Below are positions 62,796 through 63,870 of a DNA stretch of 64,000 nt, one piece after another. The stretch covers positions 62,001 through 126,000 of the forward strand of contig NZ_JTDW01000004.1 of the NCBI RefSeq assembly GCF_000943565.1, read 5' to 3'. Position 1 is the first letter of the stretch, and each line of letters starts with the position of its first letter. The stretch comes from Neotamlana sedimentorum. Its GTDB lineage: Bacteria; Bacteroidota; Bacteroidia; Flavobacteriales; Flavobacteriaceae. A program made the translations under genes and the position numbers. The notes below the pieces were generated by a model that was given only the letters and a program-made list of their open reading frames with translations, searched no databases and was not told the DNA's origin.

Positions 62796-62826
62796 TTTGA
62801 AAATTTACTTTTATTATAGATATTTG
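62796..62826 (+). promoter_or_regulatory. his operon promoter (TTTG-N19-GATATTTG)
   Basis: TTTG (62796-62799), a 19-bp spacer and GATATTTG (62819-62826), one base off TAnnTTTG. This is the best two-element match in the window. Start is expected near 62832, about 15 nt before the leader peptide ATG. Confidence 0.55.
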
Positions 62827-62846
62827 CTTCAGTAAAACAAAAAGAC

Positions 62847-62900
62847 ATGACTTTTATTCAAACACATCATCATTTTTACATTTGCTCTCAAGCGAAGTAA
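62847..62900 (+). CDS. hisL: his operon leader peptide
   Basis: 17 codons, MTFIQTHHHFYICSQAK, with three consecutive His codons (CAT CAT CAT at 62865-62873). The hairpins that surround it, and the terminator before hisG, make it a leader peptide for transcription attenuation rather than a functional protein. A ribosome delayed at the His codons leaves 62886-62894 free to pair with 62936-62944 (antiterminator), while one reaching the stop codon at 62898-62900 covers that region and lets the terminator form. Similar in concept to enterobacterial hisL, but with fewer His codons. Confidence 0.82.
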   Translation: MTFIQTHHHFYICSQAK

Positions 62901-62962
62901 AAATGTATTGAATAAAATGAAAATATATTTAAACCCGTTTGAGACAATCAAGCGGGTTTTTT
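62853..62962 (+). promoter_or_regulatory. his attenuator: pause hairpin, antiterminator, terminator
   Basis: Pause stem: TTTTATTCAA (62852-62861) with TTGAATAAAA (62908-62917), CATTTTTAC (62871-62879) with GTAAAAATG (62897-62905), and TTTGCT with AGCGAA inside. Antiterminator: TCTCAAGCG (62886-62894) with CGTTTGAGA (62936-62944), one G-U. Terminator: AAACCCGTTTGA (62931-62942) with TCAAGCGGGTTT (62948-62959), one G-U, and then T-run. The antiterminator uses the 5' arm of the terminator, so the two exclude each other. Confidence 0.82.
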
Positions 62963-63012
62963 AATTAAAAGAAAATCAACAAGATTGTTTCAAACTCATA
63001 TAAAAAACAACA

Positions 63013-63870
63013 ATGAGTAAACTAAAAATTGCAGTACAAAAATCAGGACGATTAAACGAAGAGTCGTTAGACCTACTAAAAAATTGTGGAATCTCTATCG
63101 ATAATGGTAAAGACCAATTAAAAGCCGAAGCTAGAAATTTCCCAATGGAAGTTTTGTATTTACGTAACGGCGATATTCCACAGTATTTGCGCGATGGCAT
63201 TGTAGATATTGCCATTTTAGGCGAAAACACATTAATAGAAAAAGGTAGCGATTTACCAATAGTAGAGCGCTTAGGGTTTTCAAAATGTAAAGTTTCTATT
63301 GCAGTGCCAAAAAACGCAGAATACAATTCTATAAAAGATTTACGTGGTAAAAAAATTGCAACATCATACCCAAATACAGTAAATCAGTTTTTCGAAAAGA
63401 AAGGTGAGAAGGCCGATATTCATGTTATTAATGGTTCGGTAGAAATTGCTCCAAATATTGGGTTATCGCATGCTATTGTTGATATTGTTTCAAGTGGTAG
63501 CACGCTTTTTAAAAACAATTTAAAAGAAGTAGAAGTACTTTTTAAAAGTGAAGCCGTCTTAACTTCGGCTCTAGAATTAACCGAAGAAAAACAAGTCATT
63601 CTAGACAAGTTATTATTTAGAATGAAATCGGTTTTAAAAGGTAAAAACTCTAAATACGTTTTATTAAATGCGCCAAACGACAGGTTAGATGAAATTGTGA
63701 GTTTATTACCAGGAATGAAAAGCCCAACCGTGTTGCCTTTAGCACAAGAAGGTTGGAGCTCGGTACATTCTGTTATTAATAAAAACGATTTTTGGGAAGT
63801 TATTGATGAGTTAAAAGCCAATGGCGCCGAAGGTATTTTAGTTTGCCCAATCGAAAAAATGGTGCTTTAA
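63013..63870 (+). CDS. hisG: ATP phosphoribosyltransferase (long form)
   Basis: First enzyme of histidine biosynthesis, joining ATP and PRPP. 285 residues, the long HisG type with a C-terminal regulatory ACT-like domain (from about 210, LLNAPNDRLDEIVSLLPGMKSPTVLPL, then AEGILVCPIEKMV), which binds histidine for feedback inhibition. The catalytic half has IAVQKSGRLNEESL and VDIVSSGSTLFKNNL, the PRPP loop. Preceded by the attenuator; hisD begins 99 bp after its stop. Confidence 0.97.
   Translation: MSKLKIAVQKSGRLNEESLDLLKNCGISIDNGKDQLKAEARNFPMEVLYLRNGDIPQYLRDGIVDIAILGENTLIEKGSDLPIVERLGFSKCKVSIAVPKNAEYNSIKDLRGKKIATSYPNTVNQFFEKKGEKADIHVINGSVEIAPNIGLSHAIVDIVSSGSTLFKNNLKEVEVLFKSEAVLTSALELTEEKQVILDKLLFRMKSVLKGKNSKYVLLNAPNDRLDEIVSLLPGMKSPTVLPLAQEGWSSVHSVINKNDFWEVIDELKANGAEGILVCPIEKMVL

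Follow-up and report, generated by a model that had tools for sequence, protein, structure and literature searches.

The window analysed here, i.e. the whole stretch of 64,000 nucleotides, comes from a Tamlana-like member of the Flavobacteriaceae, and the HisG encoded here shares 98% identity with the Tamlana laminarinivorans protein. The gene hisG encodes the long form of ATP phosphoribosyltransferase (TIGR00070 and TIGR03455, both above cut-off) and is the first gene of hisGDCBHAFIE; ORF translations of L304 place hisD, hisC, hisB, hisH, hisA, hisF and hisIE 3' of it, giving a complete his operon. The following features, all on the forward strand, were located at and upstream of hisG, with the pairing strands numbered in their order along the RNA and helices named after their two strands (e.g., 2:3):

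62796..62826, +, Bacteroidota-type promoter: TTTG at 62796-62799, N19, GATATTTG at 62819-62826
62847..62900, +, leader peptide ORF MTFIQTHHHFYICSQAK: ATG at 62847, stop codon TAA at 62898-62900, 17 codons
62865..62873, +, three tandem His codons, CAT CAT CAT in the sequence
62852..62917, +, pause structure: inner hairpin 62871-62905, outer stem 62852-62861/62908-62917
62886..62894, +, strand 2: antiterminator 5' half, UCUCAAGCG
62931..62944, +, strand 3: terminator 5' arm 62931-62942; antiterminator 3' half 62936-62944, CGUUUGAGA
62948..62962, +, strand 4: terminator 3' arm 62948-62959, U tract to 62962
62983..62995, +, strand 5, GAUUGUUUCAAAC: 13-bp complement (one G.U) of GUUUGAGACAAUC at 62937-62949; ends 17 nt before the hisG ATG
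63013..63870, +, hisG

The 9-bp antiterminator formed by UCUCAAGCG (62886-62894) and CGUUUGAGA (62936-62944) is exact, with one G.U, and the terminator (62931-62942/62948-62959) is T-tailed, ending in its U tract. Folding of 62840-62966 yielded -35.3 kcal/mol compared with -15.3 ± 3.2 for shuffled sequences (z = -6.25), and in the predicted folds the pause structure sequesters strand 2 in the absence of a ribosome. An initial annotation of this DNA had proposed a complete his attenuator at 62796-62962, with leader, pause hairpin, antiterminator and terminator in the correct order before hisG; every part was found in the sequence, and the attenuator as such is confirmed. It had described a pause hairpin, located here at 62871-62905, without the outer stem (62852-62861/62908-62917), and it had missed strand 5, found here in Flavobacteriales, so that the module does not end at 62962 but runs on to 62983-62995. 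The promoter, which it had called a TTTG-N19 promoter typical of Bacteroidota, is present as a sequence, and of 245 related loci, 158 carry an exact TAnnTTTG no more than 90 nt ahead of the leader, versus 9 out of 245 after shuffling, although the -7 box of the window itself carries one mismatch to TAnnTTTG. Furthermore, a near-invariant (A/G/U)UGUAUUG motif lies 3' of the leader stop codon in the window (62904-62912) and in its relatives within the Flavobacteriaceae; it could provide the start codon of a tiny frame (AUG UAU UGA in the window), and it is also paired with leader codons within the pause structure.

Conservation and operation of the his attenuator

Regions upstream of hisG were sampled from 80 named Flavobacteriaceae loci, from 110 matching genomes (class-wide sample) and from an order-wide sample. 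A His-rich leader ORF precedes hisG in 245 out of 269 sampled Bacteroidia loci, covering nearly all families sampled, and the frame is kept in about 78 of the 80 Flavobacteriaceae loci with the consensus M....(H)HHHF.T..QA(R/S/K). Where the frame ends in QA(R/S/K), it overlaps strand 2, and this conserved tail is strand 2 as read in codons, thus reflecting the RNA and not the peptide. The number of His codons per leader ranges from three to eight overall and from three to six in Flavobacteriales, so the count of only three in the window, at first considered special, falls within the usual range of the order. Over all leaders, 936 CAT stand against 147 CAC codons.

Covariation of 2:3, 3:4 and the pause structure was evaluated on a MAFFT alignment of 63 sequences (A1). 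The terminator 3:4 is paired in 98.1% of the cells, with a covariation of 0.246 versus 0.138 ± 0.008 and compensatory change in nine out of 11 pairs, and the pause structure reaches 0.235 versus 0.156 ± 0.009 for shuffled data, with 113 versus 63 compensatory cells. For the antiterminator 2:3, 86.5% of the cells are paired and covariation is modest (0.183 versus 0.149 ± 0.011 shuffled), because strand 3 has to fit three partners; 2:3 is retained in distant members despite a quite different sequence, e.g., GCGACC/GGUCGC in L258, as read by eye. The initial annotation had staked its claim on covariation of the pair 62886-62894/62936-62944 and on conservation of the leader frame in close relatives, and both are borne out by the numbers given above.

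With the 3' edge of the ribosome modelled 12 nt past the start of the A-site His codon, each of the 164 Flavobacteriales leaders is predicted to have strand 2 free when the ribosome stands at the first His codon and masked when it has reached the stop codon. When the RNA made before strand 4 appears was folded in silico and its best structure scored for 2:3, this helix was present in 163/164 leaders with the ribosome stalled at His, in 0/164 with the ribosome at the stop codon and in 62/164 without a ribosome, i.e. the modelled switch is right in 163 of the 164 Flavobacteriales leaders and agrees with the earlier statement that the ribosome positions fit. Because the His-codon leader frame is conserved, 2:3 and 3:4 covary, the ribosome positions fit and the his operon lies downstream, we consider the element almost certainly a leader-peptide attenuator of the his operon, ordinary by mechanism. 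It shows the features by which such attenuators are recognised, namely cognate consecutive codons in a short ORF before hisGDCBHAFIE, a mutually exclusive and covarying pair of antiterminator and intrinsic terminator and, in silico only, a ribosome that frees or masks the antiterminator strand. Under histidine shortage the ribosome would wait on the His codons, strand 2 would be released to pair with strand 3, and with 2:3 formed transcription would proceed into hisGDCBHAFIE; under histidine plenty the ribosome would cover strand 2 at the stop codon, 3:4 would form and transcription would end.

Some loci of the sample depart from this arrangement. In one family (f39; L174-L180, L182 and L183), His-rich leaders with GTG or TTG start codons precede hisG with no obvious T-tailed terminator, and another control mode may operate at hisG there. 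The His leaders of L123, L134, L135, L138, L150 and L163 end in ...HHSS, with no convincing intrinsic terminator before hisG, and in L123, L150 and L163 a palindrome of the type TTCCTCnnnnGAGGAA is located at the leader stop codon.

Strand 5 upstream of the hisG start codon

The partner of strand 5 at 62937-62949 runs from the strand 3 core through the terminator loop into the first bases of strand 4. This loop varies among species and strand 5 changes with it, as illustrated by GUUUGAGUAAAUC/GAUUUACUCAAAC in L018, GUCUGAAUAAAUC/GGUUUAUUCAGAC in L251 and GCCUUGAGUUUU/AAAACUCAAGGC in L231, and by L256 (CAAACACUUAGGC). Strand 5 is present in 123 out of 164 Flavobacteriales loci, about a quarter being without it. 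Alignment A1 is unsuited to 3:5, since strand 5 is misplaced in species with 4-nt loops; the helix was counted on a second alignment (A2; 5-nt loops, not fitted to structure) and complemented by alignment-free duplexes. On A2, 69 compensatory cells were observed versus 18.9 ± 3.4 expected, and covariation amounted to 0.374 versus 0.178, which is stronger than that of the terminator 3:4 and drops to about 0.08 or less in slid registers. Pooled over six columns, about 11 phylogenetically independent pairs point the same way and none the opposite way. The alignment-free duplex energy was -13.2 kcal/mol for the own strands versus -9.03 (sd 0.18) for permuted ones (n = 164), and among 67 distinct strand 3s it was -12.06 versus -8.12 (sd 0.28), with none of 5000 permutations coming near.

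The wobble pairs add a direction to this signal, as G.U pairs (127) exceed A.C mismatches (54) in 3:5, and therefore it is the sense RNA that pairs, which rules out strand 5 as a DNA palindrome or as part of an antisense RNA. A second terminator is likewise ruled out, there being no U tract after strand 5. Other Bacteroidia gave no strand 5 signal (own duplex -4.36, swapped -4.61), and the trp, phe and ilv attenuators sampled by family searches in this genome and in relatives lack strand 5, which rules it out as a general attenuator part. Judged from the covariation, strand 5 very probably represents a real RNA pairing. The terminator loops of Flavobacteriales are mostly GNRA tetraloops (GAAA, GCAA, GUAA) or five-base G...A loops, and this form is kept although the loops also co-vary with strand 5.

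The position of strand 5 might give a hint to its function. In Flavobacteriales loci with a spacer of more than 57 nt between terminator and hisG, strands 4 and 5 lie 43 nt apart instead of 16, whereas strand 5 remains 14-15 nt from the AUG; this second distance holds even where the spacer doubles, and therefore strand 5 is tied to the start codon and not to the terminator. It ends before position -13 and thus borders the core of the initiation site without covering it. In F. johnsoniae, the zone from -20 to +20 around the start is kept unstructured, an A at -12/-13 promotes initiation, and bS1 is located near -12 to -15 (PMC6847099). By analogy, the start region kept open in F. johnsoniae would be encroached upon by 3:5 if this helix ends at about -15.

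Possible roles of strand 5

In transcripts that extend past the terminator, strand 3 could pair with strand 5, and the resulting helix would reach the hisG initiation region and lower hisG translation, whereas a stalled ribosome would hold strand 3 with strand 2 and keep this brake off. Strand 3 would then have three partners with three outcomes (strand 2, both levels on; strand 4, transcription off; strand 5, translation low), and histidine sensing by the leader would persist over the lifetime of the mRNA. Here covariation shows the pairing itself; the timing of 3:5 formation and its effect are inferred. We propose that the locus combines ribosome-mediated attenuation of the his operon with a second arm specific to the lineage, in which strand 5 tunes hisG translation; this reading as a whole, and the role of 3:5 as a translational brake on hisG, each have about an even chance. 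Tentatively, Flavobacteriales his leaders might be five-strand switches, in which one stalled ribosome controls both transcription and translation; in such a five-strand reading, a single RNA strand would possibly be common to the antiterminator, the terminator and the hisG start-site helix.

The energetics are ambivalent in this respect. In the readthrough RNA of the window, 3:5 is about as stable as 3:4 (-22.7 vs -22.4); in most species the equilibrium fold of the readthrough RNA favours 3:4, the mean advantage over 3:5 being 4.9 kcal/mol, with 3:5 within 3 kcal of 3:4 in only 32% of species and preferred in 6.5%. Considered as part of a dual transcription/translation attenuator of the yxjB or TRAP-trpE type, 3:5 covaries and lies 14-17 nt from the AUG, yet 3:4 is usually the more stable helix; to act as a brake, 3:5 would then have to rely on kinetics, on a protein or on a different balance of energies in vivo.

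Covariation reveals pairing and not purpose, and strand 5 might instead govern the fate of the mRNA, with 3:5 marking or protecting a processing site, or refolding the leader after readthrough. A helix just 5' of the first gene is a common spot for processing or 5' protection, and 3:5 sits in such a place, directly upstream of hisG; nevertheless, we consider this role unlikely, as the fixed distance to the start codon rather than to the terminator points to initiation. Quite improbable, too, is an action in trans, by which the terminated leader, abundant when histidine is, would use its terminator arm and loop to pair with strand 5 in a readthrough hisG mRNA and lower the translation or stability of the latter. 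The complementarity spans exactly the terminator arm and loop carried by the terminated leader, strand 5 is located near the hisG start codon, and in Sinorhizobium a riboswitch RNA left by termination (RZ) has been reported as an sRNA (PMC9373788). However, the loop is only 4-5 nt long and often GNRA-like, i.e. a poor seed, and the 3:4 hairpin would have to open as in cis, without the advantage of a single molecule. A plain his attenuator with strand 5 as a functionless inherited or mutational leftover (e.g., of quasi-palindrome copying) would agree with an attenuator that is complete without strand 5 and with its lack in other Bacteroidia and some Flavobacteriales, but is very unlikely given compensatory changes over six variable pairs, conservation across several families, and an excess of G.U over A.C where copying would yield perfect complements and not wobble.

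Relation to known systems

The enterobacterial his leader (Rfam RF00514, His_leader) shares its layout before hisG (tandem His codons, then pause, antiterminator and terminator) and its control logic with the leader of the window, whereas the latter has a shorter His run, other helices, a strand 2 that lies within the reading frame, and strand 5; it scores 26.4 bits against RF00514 and falls outside the family (gathering score 49). None of eight relatives scanned against Rfam reaches any gathering score, and Rfam is without a family covering the Bacteroidia his attenuator. Attenuators in the Bacteroidetes/Chlorobi group are reportedly mentioned by Vitreschak et al. 2004 (FEMS Microbiol Lett). 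For F. psychrophilum, the main text of one study describes a structured 5' element of hisG, conserved in other Flavobacteriaceae and with no Rfam hit, and regards leader-peptide attenuation as likely for amino-acid operons (PMC9723704). This concerns the same gene and family, and the suggestion that the his attenuator might be undescribed in this lineage has to be withdrawn in view of it; that main text gives no strands and nothing past the terminator (PMC9723704). No description of strand 5 was found in the literature searched, in which coverage of subscription journals is mostly lacking.

With this attenuator, a textbook mechanism extends over the whole class Bacteroidia, in which it had been noted before but not modelled, and strand 5 adds a conserved, strongly covarying RNA element that is new with respect to the literature searched. 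If translational control by strand 5 holds true, the leader peptide would act after transcription, in a phylum that chooses starts by mRNA openness and not by Shine-Dalgarno pairing. In B. subtilis trpE with TRAP, a second hairpin in the readthrough transcript lowers translation of the first gene. Compared with the his leader, TRAP-trpE has a protein sensor and no leader ribosome. In function, B. subtilis yxjB comes closest: a ribosome stalled on its leader prevents termination and also prevents a fold of the readthrough RNA that would block initiation, a precedent for a stalled leader combined with a terminator and an initiation-blocking hairpin; yxjB differs in that it senses tylosin, sequesters the Shine-Dalgarno sequence, and had no overlapping antiterminator found (PMC6851288). 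Flavobacteriales, unlike the host of yxjB, make no use of Shine-Dalgarno sequences.

The Bacteroid-trp RNA (RF01692, Weinberg 2010, PMC2864571) is likewise a Bacteroidota leader with a cognate-codon run and a terminator, but has Trp codons, and nine of its loci that were inspected all lack strand 5. It is present in the same genome outside the window (L284, a trp leader-peptide attenuator, MKNSLNNTWWWCLRN, RF01692), together with leader-peptide attenuators for phe (L275, ...FINFFYFFFSGRNEALYV) and ilv (L301, MRNNLLNIVLIVVVVIFSQG). In L291, two WWW-containing trp leaders (MQKINTIWWWQSKL, MLNNKINNWWWPVLTQ...) are arranged in tandem before one gene, and each has a terminator of its own.
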